This document shows, in pieces, positions 4,334 through 64,000 of a stretch of DNA of 64,000 bases. Numbering within the stretch: position 1 is the first letter of the stretch; each line of letters opens with the position of its first letter. The position numbers and the translations under genes are program-made. This DNA comes from Kryptolebias marmoratus. Lineage: Eukaryota; Chordata; Actinopteri; Cyprinodontiformes; Rivulidae. The notes below the pieces were generated by a model that was not told where the DNA came from, did not search any database, and saw only the letters and a program-made list of their open reading frames with translations. Location of the stretch: assembly GCF_001649575.2 (NCBI RefSeq), contig NC_051434.1:5035745-5099744 (forward strand), in the 5' to 3' direction.

Positions 4334-5197
4334 NNNNNNNNNNNNNNNNNNNNNNNNNNNNNNNNNNNNNNNNNNNNNNNNNNNNNNNNNNNNNNNNNNN
4401 NNNNNNNNNNNNNNNNNNNNNNNNNNNNNNNNNNNNNNNNNNNNNNNNNNNNNNNNNNNNNNNNNNNNNNNNNNNNNNNNNNNNNNNNNNNNNNNNNNNN
4501 NNNNNNNNNNNNNNNNNNNNNNNNNNNNNNNNNNNNNNNNNNNNNNNNNNNNNNNNNNNNNNNNNNNNNNNNNNNNNNNNNNNNNNNNNNNNNNNNNNNN
4601 NNNNNNNNNNNNNNNNNNNNNNNNNNNNNNNNNNNNNNNNNNNNNNNNNNNNNNNNNNNNNNNNNNNNNNNNNNNNNNNNNNNNNNNNNNNNNNNNNNNN
4701 NNNNNNNNNNNNNNNNNNNNNNNNNNNNNNNNNNNNNNNNNNNNNNNNNNNNNNNNNNNNNNNNNNNNNNNNNNNNNNNNNNNNNNNNNNNNNNNNNNNN
4801 NNNNNNNNNNNNNNNNNNNNNNNNNNNNNNNNNNNNNNNNNNNNNNNNNNNNNNNNNNNNNNNNNNNNNNNNNNNNNNNNNNNNNNNNNNNNNNNNNNNN
4901 NNNNNNNNNNNNNNNNNNNNNNNNNNNNNNNNNNNNNNNNNNNNNNNNNNNNNNNNNNNNNNNNNNNNNNNNNNNNNNNNNNNNNNNNNNNNNNNNNNNN
5001 NNNNNNNNNNNNNNNNNNNNNNNNNNNNNNNNNNNNNNNNNNNNNNNNNNNNNNNNNNNNNNNNNNNNNNNNNNNNNNNNNNNNNNNNNNNNNNNNNNNN
5101 NNNNNNNNNNNNNNNNNNNNNNNNNNNNNNNNNNNNNNNNNNNNNNNNNNNNNNNNNNNNNNNNNNNNNNNNNNNNNNNNNNNNNNNNNNNNNNNNN
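4334..5197. other. Assembly gap (864 N)
   Basis: An unbroken run of N. Both borders are repeat-derived (retroelement tail on the left, reverse transcriptase fragment on the right), so the missing DNA is probably part of a non-LTR retrotransposon. Its true length is unknown. Confidence 0.99.
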
Positions 5198-54676: not shown

Positions 54677-56284
54677 ATGATGAATCTGTGGCTGAGCTGC
54701 CTCCTCCTGTTTGCCTCGTTGTTTCTGAGCAGCTCTGCTCCGACACCTGAAGAATGCCAGAATCTGGTCAAACCTTTGTCTCTGGCCGACCCATCTGTGG
54801 TAAACCTCCTATTTCTTCCTGGTTTTTGAACGCTGGCACTGTTCTTGAATTTTGCACTTGTTAGCTGTAACCTTTCTTTTTGTTTTGAGTTGAAGTGCAG
54901 CTTCTAACATCTGGTTTGTCACTGTTTCTACAGCTTTGCAGCAAAGCTCATTTTAGGCTTCAGCTGCAAAGCCCAGTTTGTCACATGTTTACCTTGAAAG
55001 AAAATCAAATAAGCAGACATTGTTCGGATGGGAAAACAGCAACAAAACTAAACAAATGCAAAAGTGTAGTGGCTTAATGTAACTTTCTTTCACATCGGTG
55101 TGTCGTTTATGAGAAAGAGCTTGGATGAAGACTTCTGCACTCTCTGACCGATACAAAACATCGCTTCAAATATGACCAGACTATCCCTTTAGGAGCTATA
55201 ATTTCCAGCCTGCTTGTTTGTGTGCAGATGTACGGCAGAATGAACTTCCTGGTGGGATACGCAGATCACGAAGTTTATAAAGCCATCCTGAAGGTAACCG
55301 ACAGCTCCTGGGTGAAAGTGTCAGCATCACCAACAAGCGCCACGGAGATTGTCGTGTCACAGGAGAATAAAATGTAAGCCCACAACATAATATTTGTGAA
55401 ACTCTGGAAACTCTCGTATCAGTGTTATTAACATGCACCCTGACAGCTCCCAGGCATTCGTTGTCAGCTGAAGTCTGAACGGGTTACGGGAAGATGGACT
55501 TTACTCGTCTGAACTGACATCTTGATGTCTTTTACACTTTTTTGCTGTTTGTCTCAGAAATGGAACCTGCTTCAGTTCAACAGTGAAGGGGACAGTGGAG
55601 GGTGACACAGTGAACTCATCAAGTAGGTTTACTGAGCTATGCTTTTATTTATTTAGACTTTTTAATACTAATTTTATCCGTTGCTTCTCACCCTTTTATA
55701 ATTGAACACTTGGGTTTCTGTAATTCAGGATTTTATTTTAAAATGACTTCAGTTTCATGGGGCTAATGTTGTTTTTTATTTTTTCCGTCTGTCCTCAGTT
55801 GCCAATACAACCTCGGTGTTTCACGTGCTGCCGAGCTGTGAGGGCTGTCTGGCCTTAAGCATAAACAGCACCGCCAAAAACATCCAAAATCTCCTCAAAG
55901 CCATGAAATTCAGCGACATTTCAATGGCTGACGAGTTCCACATTCGCGCCCTTTATCTTTTAGGTAAGAAGGAACCTGTCAGATGGAGAAAATGTTTCAT
56001 CAGACACAAAACTCATCAAGATTATTTTTGTTGTTTTGTTTCCAGGCCCGGAGACGACCCTGAAGGACTCTGATCTGGAGCATTTCAAGAAGCAGGCGAG
56101 CTGCCTCGGCTTCTCCGCAGAGCTGGACTTCCACTATAATCCTGAAAAAAGTGAATCAGCAGCGAAATCAAGATAAACTGCTCAGCTTGGATTTTCAACA
56201 AAACTGATGGGTTTTGTTTTTTTCTTTGTCTCTGCAGGTTTCTGTCAAGAAGGTGAAGGCATCAGGATGCCATACTCCCAATAA
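54677..56284 (+). CDS. Secreted lipocalin 1, TBT-binding / saxitoxin-tetrodotoxin-binding protein family
   Basis: Plasma-type carrier protein; relatives in flounder bind tributyltin and in puffers bind saxitoxin and tetrodotoxin. The ligand here is unknown. Six exons: 54677-54799, 55228-55373, 55558-55622, 55799-55963, 56046-56150, 56238-56284; 651 nt, 216 aa, all GT-AG, frame kept throughout. A signal peptide (about residues 1-20) is followed by APTPEECQNLV. Cysteines lie in EEC, NGTC, CEGC, ASC and FC. Several N-glycosylation sequons are seen (NGT, NSS, NTT, NST). The usual lipocalin G-x-W at the start of exon 2 is altered: YGRMNF has the glycine but no tryptophan. Exon 3 is short (65 nt against 97-98 in the neighbours). 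ATG-ATG start; the first is chosen. AATAAA follows soon after the stop. Confidence 0.88.
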
Positions 56285-57752: not shown

Positions 57753-59754
57753 ATGAGTTTTCTGAAGGGAACGATTCTTCTGCTGCTGCTGGTGGTGATC
57801 GGCACCAACGCAGCACCGGGCCCAGCTGCTGAAGAATGCGCTAATGTGACCAAAAGGCTGCCAACAAAAGATCTGCATGAGGTCAGATTTATTTTTCTGC
57901 ATGTCACTTATTTTTGGTATCTGTTACTTTCAGGTGTTAAAGATTAATTTTGCTTATTTTCACAAGCATTTTTTGTAATTATCCCACATTCCCAGAGAAA
58001 CACAGAACATGTTCCAGGTTGGCTCAGATGCTGACTTGTCGTCTTCCCCCCCTCCTGCAGATTTTCGGCGACTGGGTTCTGGTCTGGTCCGTTTCTAACC
58101 ATGACTTGGGCCATGGCTTACTGGAAAACCTTCTTAGCTCCCATGTAGAGTTCAAACTCGACAACGACAACAAAACTATTGACTACATTGAGAGAAACCA
58201 ATTTGTGTGAGTTTTCACATTGAAACAATGCCTCTGACAGAAGTATGGCTGCGGTATCTGAGGTTAAAGGCAGAAAGGAATCAAAATGAGCAGACAGCAA
58301 ATGTATTTGTTTGGAAGTCTGAAGTTAAACAGACTGTTGTTGTTTTCTGACTGAATGTTGTTGTTTTTAGTGACAATGGAAACCTTGCCCATTGTACCAC
58401 CTACTATACCAAGATGACGATGCCCTCGGATGATGCTGAACACCACACAATAAATCTGATTCCATCAGTAAGTCAGATCATCAAGACTGTTGTAATAAAC
58501 CAAATAATCAATGGTTCAGTGTGATCTGTAGTAGTAGTCACCAGAATAAAGATATGTTCATGTTGTGATAATAGATCCACAAGAATTAAAAAGCAACAGA
58601 AATAAAGTATCAAACCTCCAAAAAACAAAAAATATCTTTATATACAAGACATTGACCGTAATAAGTTTAGAAACATTATTAATCGACTTCTTTCCTGCTC
58701 AGCACAAACATCAGCTATACTTGGTTCACATTTTGTAGATAAAACTTTGGGTTAGTATTTGACATATAGAGGCTGCTAAGACAAGTGGCAACTATAATTG
58801 GTAGACATGTATCTTACAGCCCAATCTGTATTTGGTATGTACTTACCTGGTATTAATCTGATACTGGGTATTATCCTGATACAGACCAGGTACACTGCGT
58901 ATTTATCTGGTACTTATTGGGTACAGAAAAGCTACCTACTTACCTATTATGTAACTGTGCCTACAGGGACCAGGCTGTATTATAAAGTGACTTGTTACCT
59001 TGTATTTATAGAGTACATACCAGGTACTTACTGCTTAGTTTTACTGTATTTGTCATGTCTTGAAGAGGCGACCTGCCTCTGGTTGCTTTAAGATTCAATC
59101 ACAACATCAGCCTCCTCTACAAAATATTTATTTATCTATTTATTTTTAAATATTGTCGGCCTGGCAACACAATCTAAAGCAGGATTGTTACTGTTATTGT
59201 GTATGAAGGTGTGTTTCTTTTGTCATTTCTTATTTTCAAGTTTGTTCTGTGTGTTTTTGTGCATCAGGACTAGAAAAGGACGGAGAGGCTCAGGAGTACA
59301 CCGAAATCGGAGACGTGGACTTCTATCAGACCTGCGACGACTGTCTGCTGATGGACTACAAAACCTCAACGCATCAATTCCTGCTGTTCTACAGTAAAAC
59401 GCTCGCACACAACTTAACAATAAAAACCGAGTCAGCATTTCCCCTGCTGTGACCGTCCCGCCCGCTGAACTCAGTTTTGTTAACGTGAACGGTCTCGTTT
59501 TGTCCCTCAGGGAGAGAGGGGTCCCATCAGGATGTCGAGCAGCATAAAACCCACCATGCTGATCATTTGAAAGTGGCTGAGTGTTTGGGATTCCCCCAAA
59601 GCCAACCATTTATCTACAACGGAAAAGCAGGTCAGTCACTTCAAACCACAATACTGCCAAAATCAGCACGTTTACCTCATCTGACTTTCTCTTTTTATCT
59701 TTTTTTACAGATTTCTGTCACAAGAAATCAGCTCCAGAGCCGAGCGCTGAGTAG
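57753..59754 (+). CDS. Secreted lipocalin 2, TBT-bp/PSTBP family, with a reading-frame fault
   Basis: Same family and exon plan as gene 1: 57753-57881, 58061-58206, 58371-58467, 59268-59393, 59511-59630, 59711-59754. Signal peptide (LLLLLVVIGTNA) then EEC; intact lipocalin motif FGDW at the start of exon 2; cysteines in AHC, QTCDDC, AEC and FC; sequons NVT and NKT. Exon lengths 146, 126, 120 and 44 equal those of the minus-strand paralogue, but exon 3 is 97 nt where 98 is expected. It therefore ends in phase 0 although exon 4 needs phase 1, and joined as seen it stops two codons into exon 4 (about 125 aa). Either a one-base loss inactivated it, the donor differs, or the assembly has an error. 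Exons 4 and 5-6 are near-identical to two different parts of the minus-strand gene. Confidence 0.75.
58820..59045. repeat. ACCTGGTACTTACC-type repeat in intron 3 of lipocalin gene 2
   Basis: Imperfect GGTAC/TACCT units, with GTACTTACCTGGTATTAA and CCTACAGGGACCAGGCTG, continuing to TACATACCAGGTACTTAC. It matches the repeat at 38360-38560, including the block after CCTACAGG. Its right half lies in the outer inverted arm and is repeated at 63896-64000. Confidence 0.75.
58941..59489 (+). repeat. Outer inverted repeat, left arm
   Basis: Matches 64000 down to 63452 in reverse complement without gaps. I found only three mismatches, clustered just after exon 4 (about 59404-59431). It covers part of intron 3, all of exon 4 and much of intron 4 of gene 2. 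The partner runs off the window edge, so the true arm is longer. Confidence 0.92.
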
Positions 59755-60066
59755 CCCTGAGTGGAGCAGGAAGGGAAGAGAAATAAACGCAAAAGCCTTC
59801 ACAAATGTGTCTGTCTTGTTTTATTCACAATAAAACTACTTTTATCGGACAAACTTCAACATGAATAAAACATCTGAGTGTGTGTGTGGATCTGTTCAGA
59901 TTGACAAACAGTGACTTAAAACAAAATGAGTTCACGAAGGCAGACAGAAACAAACACAGAGCGTTTGGTTAAGATCAGAAAAGGTCAAGTCTGGATTAAA
60001 AATAAAAGATTTAAAACAAAAGTATTTCAGCTGTTTGATAAATTTTAATCTAAACATTTTAATAAC
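59490..60066 (+). repeat. Inner inverted repeat, left arm
   Basis: Matches 61617 down to about 61155 in reverse complement. It covers the end of intron 4, exons 5-6, the 3' UTR and flanking DNA of gene 2. A segment of about 118 bases (near 59871-59988) is absent from the partner arm. The intron between exons 5 and 6 is almost identical in both arms. Confidence 0.88.
59782..59834 (+). promoter_or_regulatory. Polyadenylation signals of lipocalin gene 2
   Basis: AATAAA at 59782-59787 and 59829-59834, 28 and 75 bases past the stop. Both have counterparts in the inverted arm. Confidence 0.65.
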
Positions 60067-61154
60067 ATTTTTTTATTTCAGCCAACGGCTGAAATATTTG
60101 GTTCTCCTTTGGTTCCTCTCATTGCCACTAGATGTCCTCAGTTACTCTTATCATCTTTGTGTTTCCACTTTTATCCTGTTCTTTTGGAGTAATTTCTGTC
60201 CCAGAGCATGGATATTTTGTTTGGATTTTGGGTTCTCCGCTTGTTCAGTTTTTTTTTTTTCTCGGTGCTGAGTTAAAGTTGGGTTTGCTTTTCGTCTGCT
60301 GCTTTTTGCTTCTTTATTCTGCAGTTAAGTCTTCCTATTTTACTTGTCTCTGTAATAAACAAGAAAACAAAACTTTCTCAAATTGCAACAAAAGAGAACA
60401 GAAAATCTATTTTTACAAAGCTAAACAAATGTATTTATTACCTTGGAGAAAAGCTGCAGAGAGTTAATGAATCTGGCTAAATTTAACATATAAATTAGGA
60501 TTTATTGATTAAAAATGAAACGTATAATGTTATCATCACATGTTTTAATTTGTTTATGATTAAGAACAAAGCAGACTGAAATAGTTCTATTAACAGTTTT
60601 ATTAAAGTATTTATCTTTTCACAAAAATCTGTCTGTTTTGCAATTAAGTATCTGTTTATATTTGCATTAGCTTTCAGTTTGGTTATTAAAATATCTTTCT
60701 ATATATTATTATATATACCCATATTGTGTAAAACTATTTAAGTGATTTGGTTTCAATTCAGGTATTTTTAAACACTTTGTCTATTTCTCAGAGCAGAAAT
60801 AAATAAGGTTCTGATAAATTAAGCTGAGCTTTTAGGATCTGAAAAAAAAGTTTTTTTTAGTTTGATTAATTGAAACAGTAACATTTTCTTCGAGAACAAA
60901 TGAACAGATTTAGAGATTTAAACGACTTAAATTAAAACGTTTTGTGCTGAACTTGGCAGTGATCTGTGTTTCTGACGATGGTTGGATGAAGGCTGATGGT
61001 TGGATGTTTGGATGGTTGGATGGAGGCCAGTGGTTGGATGTTTGGATGGTTGGCAAATATCAAATTGGTTTGAAGCCAGATTTTTTTCCCACTTCTGCAT
61101 TTAAAACTTAAACACAATCTGTAATATGATTATTAATAATAAAAAACAAATAAT
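60067..61154. other. AT-rich spacer at the centre of the inverted lipocalin repeats
   Basis: About 1.1 kb between the tail-to-tail lipocalin genes. No gene is recognised. Includes repeated GGTTGGATGTTTGGATGG units at about 60980-61052 and long AT-rich tracts. It forms the loop of the nested inverted repeat. Confidence 0.6.
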
Positions 61155-61617
61155 AATATTAAAATGTTCAGATTAAACTTGATCAAACAGCTGAAATACT
61201 TTTGTTTTAAATCTTTTATTTTTAATCCAGACTTTTATTCATGTTGAAGTTTGTCCAATAAAAGCAGTTTTATTAGAAATAAAACAAGACAAAGACACAT
61301 TTGTGAAGGCTTTTGCGTTTATTTCTCTTCCCTTCCTGCTCCACTCAGGGCTACTCAGCGCTCGGCTCTGGAGCTGATTTCTTGTGACAGAAATCTGTAA
61401 AAAAAAGATAAAAAGAGAAAGTCAGATGAGGTAAACGTGCTGATTTTGGCAGTATTGTGGTTTGAAGTGACTGACCTGCTTTTCCGTTGTAGATATATGG
61501 TGGTCTGTCGGGGAATCCCAAACATTCAGACACTTTTTTTATATTCAGCATGGTGGGTTTTATGCTGCTTGACATCCTGATGTGACCCCTCTCTCCCTGA
61601 GGGACAAAACAAGACCG
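61155..61617 (-). repeat. Inner inverted repeat, right arm
   Basis: Reverse complement partner of 59490-60066, holding exons 5'-6' and the 3' end of the two-domain gene. One extra base lies within exon 5' relative to the left arm, in an A7 run. Confidence 0.88.
61269..61323 (-). promoter_or_regulatory. Polyadenylation signals of the two-domain lipocalin gene
   Basis: On the minus strand AATAAA occurs at 61323-61318 and 61274-61269, at the same spacing from the stop as in gene 2. Confidence 0.65.
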
Positions 61618-64000
61618 TTCACGTTAAGAAAACCACATTTAATGTGAGGAAAGTCACTCTGTGATAAAGGCTGAATAATTTTTAATGAGATGCTGTGTCT
61701 GTATGAGTGTCTTACTGTAGGAGAGCAGGAATCGCTCCGCCAAGATATTGTAGGTGATCAGCAGACAGTCGGGGCAGGTCTGATAGAAGTCCACCACTCC
61801 TGTTTCGTTGTATGCCTGAAGCACGCCGTTCGTCTCCTGTCCTAAAACACACACACCCACATGTCTGTCTCTCTACCTTTGCAGGGACTTCCATACATTA
61901 CTACAGCCTAACCCTGACCCTTACCCTAACCCTAACCATTACCAGTACATACCTAACCCTAAACCAAACCTAAAATCAATTCACACCTTAGTCCTAAACC
62001 TAACCCCTAACCCAAAAACATAATTTCTCCTCGTGGGGACCAGGCTTTGGTCTCCACAAGGAGCAGTTGGTCCTCAAAAGTTAGGAAAATTGTCCCCACA
62101 ATGTACCAAATACAAGTCCACACACACACACACACATCAATAACAATCCCTGGTAGATAACCTGTATTTTGTGTCTTGTGTCTTCTTTGTTATACCTTTT
62201 AAGGTAAATAGTGCCCATACTTCTCAGACTGTAAAAATTGTTGTTGGTACTTTCAGCAGATATTTTTTTTATGTTGATGTTTGACGCTGAATTCCATTTA
62301 CATCTGAACTTGAAACTCGGATCTCCGAATGACGTCAGACCTGACTTGATTGTGTTTCAGTTGCAGCCAGGAGGGTTTGGTCATGGTTGCGCTCAGTTTA
62401 TAAGCCGTTGACAATACAGTCTGTGCGTTTTAACTAAACATGGCTGGAATGTACTGCATGTGTGACCAGATTACTACGATACAAACTGCACCTGTGATTG
62501 TTATATTGTGCTAAAAAAGTCGACATGAACATGTTACATTTATTGTGGGGTAAATTTGGGTGGCGTTCTGACTTACTGAAAAAAAAAAAAACACACTTTG
62601 CTGAGTTTTCCTCAGGATCATCAGGGACCTTTGTCATGTTGGCATAGTAGGTAATACAGGACTTGTGACCTCCACTGAAAACAACGAGAGAAGAAAGCAA
62701 CATCAGTCTGCCATGTGTGCTGTCTCTCAGGGACTCCTGCACTGTCAGATAATGTGGCTACAGCGTGTCTCTGAGTCAGTGTTTAAATGTGGGAACTCAC
62801 GTAAACATGTTCCTCAGAATGAACTCAACAGCTTTGTTATCATGGAGAGCTTTGAACTCTACGTGAGAGGTGGCCATCATTCCCAGCAAGGCTTTACCTA
62901 TTTCACGTTCAGACACGGACCAGACCATAATCCAGTTGCCATAAATCTGCAGTGGGGGCAAGAGGAGAACGGGTCAAAGTCTGGCCCAATTGAGCTTCTC
63001 TGGAGTTTTTCTAGAATTTTTTAAATGCTGCTAGTATTTGTGAAAATGAACGAAATTAGACTTTTATGTCTCTAACAGATTACAATGGATGGTAAATGTC
63101 AACTGATAAAATGTTGTCCATTACAGAATTTGAACATTTACCACAGACATGTCATCCAGAGACAAAGCTGTGACCAGCGGCCGGCATTCTTCTGATAACG
63201 GAGCTGACAACTTGTGACAAAAGTCTGTACAAAGAGATAGAAAGAGAACATTAGATAAAGTAAAGCATAACGATCGTGTCGACAGCCGTCAGTCATTTAA
63301 AGTCACTGACCTGCTTTTCCATTATAGACAAACGGCTTGTTGTGAGGGAATCCCATACACTCAGCCAGTTTCTTGTGGTCATCGTGGTGGGTTTTATGCT
63401 GCTCAGCATCCTGATGTGACCCCTCCTTCTCTGATGCACAAAACAAGATCATTCACGTTAACAAAACTGAGTTCAGCGGGCGGGACGGTCACAGCAGGGG
63501 AAATGCTGACTCAGTTTTTATTGTAAAGTTGTGTGTGAGCGTTTTACTGTAGAACAGCAGGAATTGATGCGTTGAGGTTTTGTAGTCCATCAGCAGACAG
63601 TCGTCGCAGGTCTGATAGAAGTCCACGTCTCCGATTTCGGTGTACTCCTGAGCCTCTCCGTCCTTTTCTAGTCCTGATGCACAAAAACACACAGAACAAA
63701 CTTGAAAATAAGAAATGACAAAAGAAACACACCTTCATACACAATAACAGTAACAATCCTGCTTTAGATTGTGTTGCCAGGCCGACAATATTTAAAAATA
63801 AATAGATAAATAAATATTTTGTAGAGGAGGCTGATGTTGTGATTGAATCTTAAAGCAACCAGAGGCAGGTCGCCTCTTCAAGACATGACAAATACAGTAA
63901 AACTAAGCAGTAAGTACCTGGTATGTACTCTATAAATACAAGGTAACAAGTCACTTTATAATACAGCCTGGTCCCTGTAGGCACAGTTACATAATAGGTA
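61351..64000 (-). CDS. Two-domain lipocalin (PSTBP-like), 5' part beyond the window, frameshift near the 3' end
   Basis: Exons in transcript order: 63673-63548, 63430-63311, 63224-63142, 62946-62801, 62674-62577, 61841-61716, 61596-61476, 61394-61351; earlier exons lie past 64000. The first two are exons 4-5 of domain 1 (QTCDDC, AEC). The third, 83 nt, is a fusion: it starts as a last exon (DFCHKLSAP) but, instead of a stop, runs into a mature lipocalin start (SEECRPLVTALSLDDMSV). Domain 2 follows with YGNW at the start of its exon 2, SCITYY, QTCPDC, SEC and FCHKKSAPEPSAE. Frame holds until the penultimate exon, which is 121 nt instead of 120 because of an A7 run and meets TGA at once. A T13 tract at the 3' end of the 98-nt exon encodes four phenylalanines. 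Puffer saxitoxin/tetrodotoxin-binding proteins have the same two-domain build. Ligand unknown; this is a carrier, not a toxin. Confidence 0.82.
61860..62135. repeat. Dispersed repeat with telomere-like TAACCC units, in an intron of the two-domain lipocalin
   Basis: Begins GCAGGGACTTCCATAC, then degenerate CCCTAACCCTAACC-like units (about 61907-62020), TCGTGGGGACCAGG and GGTCTCCACAAGG, and closes with (CA)n at 62116-62134. This is a common fish dispersed repeat; the TAACCC units belong to it and need not be a real telomere relic. Confidence 0.65.
63452..64000 (-). repeat. Outer inverted repeat, right arm (open at the window edge)
   Basis: Reverse complement partner of 58941-59489 (coordinates sum to 122941). 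Contains exon 4 of domain 1 of the two-domain gene. Identity is complete across introns as well as exons apart from three bases, so the duplication or conversion is very recent, or the assembly has duplicated a haplotype. Confidence 0.92.

Follow-up and report, generated by a model that had tools for sequence, protein, structure and literature searches.

How can a protein with two lipocalin domains be built from genes that each encode one? The question is raised by a single exon in the genome of the killifish Kryptolebias marmoratus (Rivulidae). The window analysed is a stretch of 64,000 nucleotides (contig NC_051434.1, positions 5,035,745 to 5,099,744), and its right end holds three genes of one family, here called A, B and C. 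Positions above 64000 are extended coordinates beyond this 64-kb window. The exon at 63142-63224 of gene C, on the minus strand, starts like exon 6 of a B-type gene, that is, a gene of the PSTBP/TBT-bp2 type, and ends like exon 1 of an A-type gene. Judged by its sequence matches, this fusion exon unites a terminal lipocalin exon with the initial exon of another, lipocalin-like paralog. We consider it quite probable that the two were joined by illegitimate recombination in an ancestor of the rivulids, with a two-domain transcript carrying one signal peptide as the predicted result.

The fusion exon is 83 base pairs (bp) long. It is entered in phase 1 from exon 5 of the first domain (63430-63311), across an intron of 86 bp, and left in phase 0 into exon 2 of the second domain (62946-62801). 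Both splice sites are clean and follow the consensus (acceptor CTCTTTGTACAG; donor GTG followed by GTAAATGTTC). The translation, DFCHKLSAPLSEECRPLVTALSLDDMSV, is free of stops. Boundaries and phases are exactly those described in an earlier note on this DNA. The chance level of each exon match was set by 300 dinucleotide shuffles per comparison. In bases 3-25, 19 of 23 positions agree with a last exon of the PSTBP/TBT-bp2 type (z 6.4; 0/300 shuffles as good). Bases 18-83 match exon 1 of gene A (54677-54799, plus strand) at 50 of 66 positions (z 16.9; 0/300). Exon 1 of gene B was considered as the source of the second half and rejected, with 9 shared bases, a z of 1.5 and 35/300 shuffles as good. 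The matches to a B-type last exon and to exon 1 of gene A, not of gene B, thus indicate that the exon joins two different paralogs. They overlap by 8 bases (exon bases 18-25, 63200-63207, minus strand), the likely join point, where the last exon has TCAGCTCC and exon 1 of gene A has TCTGCTCC. Reading back from the fusion exon, a stop is reached before any ATG, so an alternative start right before the second domain was rejected. The earlier note had described a last and a first exon fused without a stop or a second signal peptide, with a donor end like that of gene A; exon anatomy and matches bear this out.

The same joint occurs in a second genus of the family. Austrofundulus limnaeus has an annotated protein of 409 amino acids, saxitoxin and tetrodotoxin-binding protein 1 (P0001), with two domains by profile and the chimeric joint DFCHKSSILISEECRPAVTPLSLADPSV, which is known from the protein model and not from exon borders. 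The annotated K. marmoratus protein is P0002 (99 percent identity to the translated exons over 88 percent of the query). The type of exon 1 was assigned by comparing its last 17 coded residues with reference segments, 4 of the A type and 156 of the B type. In both rivulid joints, all A-type segments outscored every B-type segment: the K. marmoratus joint scored 46-62 with A-type and at most 36 with B-type segments, and the Austrofundulus joint 47-80 and at most 29. The exon-1 ends of gene B and of the first Austrofundulus domain scored as B-type. P0001 and P0002 are the only ones of 147 proteins in which an exon-1 end with LSLxDxSV is followed by a B-type exon 2; the remaining carriers of the motif (P0015, P0030 and P0055) are A-type. 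This distribution and the segment scores indicate that the second domain starts as A-type and continues as B-type. The proposed join rests directly on the exon anatomy with its phases and splice sites, on the pair of matches that overlap by 8 bases and on the A-type joint in Austrofundulus. From these we infer the deletion or crossover behind it.

The intron after the fusion exon shares a 27-base match with the first intron of gene B (z 4.3; 0/300). Gene A offers no such match in its first intron (z -0.5, -1.5 and -1.1), and a derivation of the intron from gene A was not upheld. The partly B-like intron, together with the shortness of the A-like stretch (66 bases), would fit a history in which a B-type exon 6 was first joined to a B-type exon 1, as in Takifugu, before gene conversion replaced the 3' part of the joint with sequence from exon 1 of gene A. 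We regard this as doubtful: the A-like match reaches the last-exon match with an overlap of 8 bases, and a direct join needs no second event at this place. The earlier note had proposed that the spacer between tandem genes was lost. The missing stop and second signal peptide agree with this, but simple loss is too simple, because the second half of the exon is of the gene A type while exon 2 of the second domain and at least part of the preceding intron are of the gene B type.

The proposed direct join would start from an array with genes of both types. A deletion through the 8-base similarity would bring a B-type last exon up against an A-type first exon, and a second exchange in intron 1 would place B-type exons behind the A-type start. 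This exchange may have preceded, accompanied or followed the fusion. The fusion would date to an ancestor of the rivulid killifishes. The first domain would start with a signal-peptide exon that lies inside the assembly gap described below. The product would be a two-barrel carrier of small molecules in plasma, secreted by means of the signal peptide of the first domain, and 10 linker residues would separate the final cysteine of that domain from the first cysteine of the second.

Several observations weigh against this reading and concern the assembly, the reading frame and the comparison with Austrofundulus. Exons 1-3 of the first domain would be hidden by a run of 1715 N (64001-65715), which starts exactly at the end of the window and lies inside an inverted repeat. 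The left arm (58941-60078) shares its sequence with the right arm (61141-64000), which ends at the gap; genes B and C stand tail to tail within the repeat. The extension past 64000 suggested by the earlier note was run; it reached the gap, and the missing exons were not seen. Mirrored across the repeat, exons 1-3 of gene B would lie wholly within the N run. Past the gap, up to 83056, nothing resembling the left flank or the lipocalin family was found. A further N run inside the window spans 4334-5197. Exon 4 of the first domain (63548-63673, minus strand) is identical to exon 4 of gene B in all 123 compared bases, next to the gap, which misassembly could explain; because of this identity and the adjoining gap, its assignment to gene C is provisional. 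The final 90 bases of the intron after the fusion exon are not clearly B-like (z 1.6; 24/300). The second domain of gene C is frameshifted in the K. marmoratus assembly. The SAP residues at the join are absent in Austrofundulus, so that the microhomology at the join is a K. marmoratus observation. A tree of exons 2-3 does not pair the rivulid second domains and places that of Austrofundulus with Oryzias (86/64).

With the inverted repeat beside the gap, and 469 of 470 bases at the contig edge identical to gene B (summed over ten blocks), the gene C region might have been misjoined or in part collapsed, and the fusion exon might not exist in the form drawn. This is very improbable. Exon 5 of the first domain, the intron behind it, the fusion exon and exon 2 of the second domain are contiguous and distinct from gene B, and the independently annotated Austrofundulus has the same joint.

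Exon 5 of the second domain (61476-61596, minus strand) has 121 bp, compared with 120 bp in exon 5 of the first domain and of gene B; it is frameshifted against its relatives and a stop follows. Exon 3 of gene B (58371-58467) has 97 bp, compared with 98 bp in the second domain, a likely frame break. These indels may be real decay or assembly errors. With one frameshift in the second domain and a probable one in gene B, the K. marmoratus copies may be decaying, and the locus as assembled likely is. There is a little less than an even chance that gene C is an unprocessed pseudogene, the remnant of a two-domain gene without a product in this species. The frame damage in both genes fits this, as do the LOW QUALITY label of the K. 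marmoratus protein in the database and the nonsynonymous (dN 0.30) and synonymous (dS 0.35) divergence between the two domains in exon 4. Against it, exons 4-5 of the first domain and the fusion exon stay open, the ratio for exon 5 of the first domain against gene B is low (dN 0.13, dS 0.85), and single-base indels may come from assembly. Gene B and the second domain differ in exon 2 with dN 0.37 and dS 0.65. In Austrofundulus, both domains are open.

Gene B itself appears as a mosaic. When the regions 59200-59866 and 63296-64000 were compared, gene B tracked the first domain of gene C up to 59479 (87/87 informative sites) and the second domain from 59490 to 59727 (51/60). Gene B is provisionally read as a product of domain loss from the fused gene by recombination. 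The reading is provisional because the first-domain side at the contig edge is 536/539 identical to gene B; an identical mosaic would result if the assembly had extended gene C there with sequence of gene B.

Membership of the lipocalins was assessed from motif, profile and predicted fold. A GxW motif near the N-terminus is a mark of the lipocalin superfamily. In an alignment of 75 relatives, G43 and W45 reach a conservation of 90 percent or more, and the second domain of gene C has GNW. A lipocalin fold is predicted for a B-type relative from Fundulus, with an eight-stranded barrel and a C-terminal helix. The predicted fold resembles alpha-1-acid glycoprotein and apolipoprotein M at 10-18 percent identity; unlike the fused protein, both have a single domain. 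The profile match to alpha-1-acid glycoprotein was weak (E 0.047). No Pfam lipocalin model exceeded the cut-off among the matches listed (25/33 families), one of the 75 members matched ApoM (E 0.0058), and the partial protein of the window gave no lipocalin match in Pfam.

The best-known protein of this architecture is PSTBP of Takifugu. It has two tandem TBT-bp2-type lipocalin domains, and its last-exon DFCHKK is joined to a first-exon EEC without a second signal peptide. The idea of an exon-level origin, put forward in the earlier note, is not new: the fusion of exon 6 with exon 1 is in print for Takifugu PSTBP in PMC7694119, through which the exon-level statement of Hashiguchi et al. 2015 is known. 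The introduction of PMC6071046 describes PSTBP monomers as fusions of two tandem TBT-bp2 units, with the gene found only in Takifugu until then. According to PMC10820246, PSTBP genes are present in tetrodotoxin-bearing puffers and absent from non-toxic Tetraodontidae, and PMC7694119 states that PSTBP-like proteins were not detected in common fish. The boundaries and matches of the K. marmoratus exon show the same kind of exon 6/exon 1 fusion as PSTBP. Both domains are present in Austrofundulus; in K. marmoratus, the second domain and exons 4-5 of the first are seen and the rest would fall in the gap. The rivulid gene differs from PSTBP in its first-exon half, which is B-type in Takifugu and A-type in rivulids, and the domains fall in separate clades. 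Toxin binding is a trait of Takifugu PSTBP, whereas the killifish gene is known here from its sequence. The earlier note had left open whether the host is kin to puffers; it is a killifish and no puffer relative. The killifish occurrence, the make-up from two paralogs and the likely independence were not met in the open-access literature searched for reports outside puffers.

Joints of this kind were sought in other fishes, where they are known from protein models whose exon borders are not part of the data. The joint pattern matched 24 internal boundaries. A second signal peptide is absent from 19 and kept in 5; the latter, which may stem from read-through in the annotation, were left out of the fusion count. 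The 19 span 11 genera, with Takifugu as the sole puffer and 10 non-puffer genera. In 17 of them, 6 to 13 residues lie between the flanking cysteines (counted by eye); P0065 is without an exon-1 part, P0060 is without the first-exon cysteine and P0026 has an unusual tail. The pattern missed joints of Channa striata, Betta, Eucyclogobius, P0011 and P0016. Some protein models of the family have three or four domains (P0008, P0010 and P0014, from Channa striata, Perca flavescens and Betta).

The domain trees group by fish lineage. The main tree held 109 of 114 domain rows, and the fewest changes between fused and single state on it were 19 over the 91 rows scored. The four rivulid domain rows form a group (98/97). 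In the exons 2-3 tree, the first Austrofundulus domain pairs with gene B (91/91); in the tree of exons 4-6, both Austrofundulus domains group together (98/92) and are nearly identical, which makes gene conversion visible. Approximately unbiased (AU) tests, with groups set by domain position yet tested after the first tree was seen, rejected a single clade of nine downstream domains (p 6.75e-40) and the grouping of rivulid with Takifugu second domains in one clade (p 3.5e-6). In 12 of 20 joints, the first exon closest to the exon-1 half comes from the same genus or family, and in 6 it comes from another family; the 2 A-type halves are those of the rivulids.

The rejected second-domain clade suggests that the rivulid fusion is likely independent of that in Takifugu, with gene conversion as the rival. 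The trees and the A-type joint support neither descent of the rivulid gene from the Takifugu fusion nor the view of the earlier note that this exon illustrates the origin of the puffer protein, with conversion as the caveat. One fusion in an early percomorph could have been followed by conversion that homogenised the domains in each lineage, so that the joints only look independent; the same grouping by lineage could result. The conversion in Austrofundulus, the nearly constant place of the joints and the at least 19 changes, many for simple gains, speak for such a single event. The rejected one-clade tests speak against it, though conversion could cause the rejection too, as do the 12 joints with an exon-1 half of their own genus or family. 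The A-type half limited to rivulids is not easily explained by conversion. A single ancient fusion is unlikely. Joints of this kind have likely arisen on several occasions among percomorphs, one of them in Takifugu.

The remaining parts of the locus complete the gene models. Gene A (54677-56284, plus strand) has six exons and is open throughout. Gene B (57753-59754, plus strand) is a single-domain gene of six exons, 57753-57881, 58061-58206 and the aforementioned exon 3, followed by 59268-59393, 59511-59630 and 59711-59754. This exon order fits P0110 of Paralichthys olivaceus, a single-domain form of the same family with, in contrast to the fused protein, one domain, its own signal peptide and its own stop. 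Gene C runs on the minus strand from beyond 64000 to 61351, with exons 4-5 of the first domain, the fusion exon and exons 2-6 of the second. Exon 5 of the first domain has 95 of 117 bases equal to exon 5 of gene B. In the second domain, exon 2 (146 bp) is B-type with IYGNWIMVW, exon 3 (62577-62674) has 98 bp with a long T run at its end, exon 4 (61716-61841) has 126 bp and exon 6 (61351-61394) reads DFCHKKSAPEPSAE with a stop in the unshifted frame. The T run (62577-62600) codes for four phenylalanines, unlike in relatives. The intron between exons 3 and 4 contains a TG run and many GGTTAGG motifs (61907-62130), perhaps an inserted repeat element. A search of the whole genome with the two-domain Austrofundulus protein gave 10 matches with 14 candidates scored, all within 57753-63671.

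For the family, the balance of evidence tips slightly towards a double-lipocalin design that is no invention of toxin-bearing fish: percomorphs would have welded last and first exons many times, the rivulids from two paralogs, and the number of domains would since have risen and fallen as the repeated modules recombined with each other. The locus offers a case at the exon level, two paralogs joined inside one exon. A killifish with the PSTBP architecture made from different parts makes the architecture separable from toxin binding. It provides a natural second experiment, in which a plain two-barrel carrier stands beside a tetrodotoxin carrier and the change between them becomes testable.
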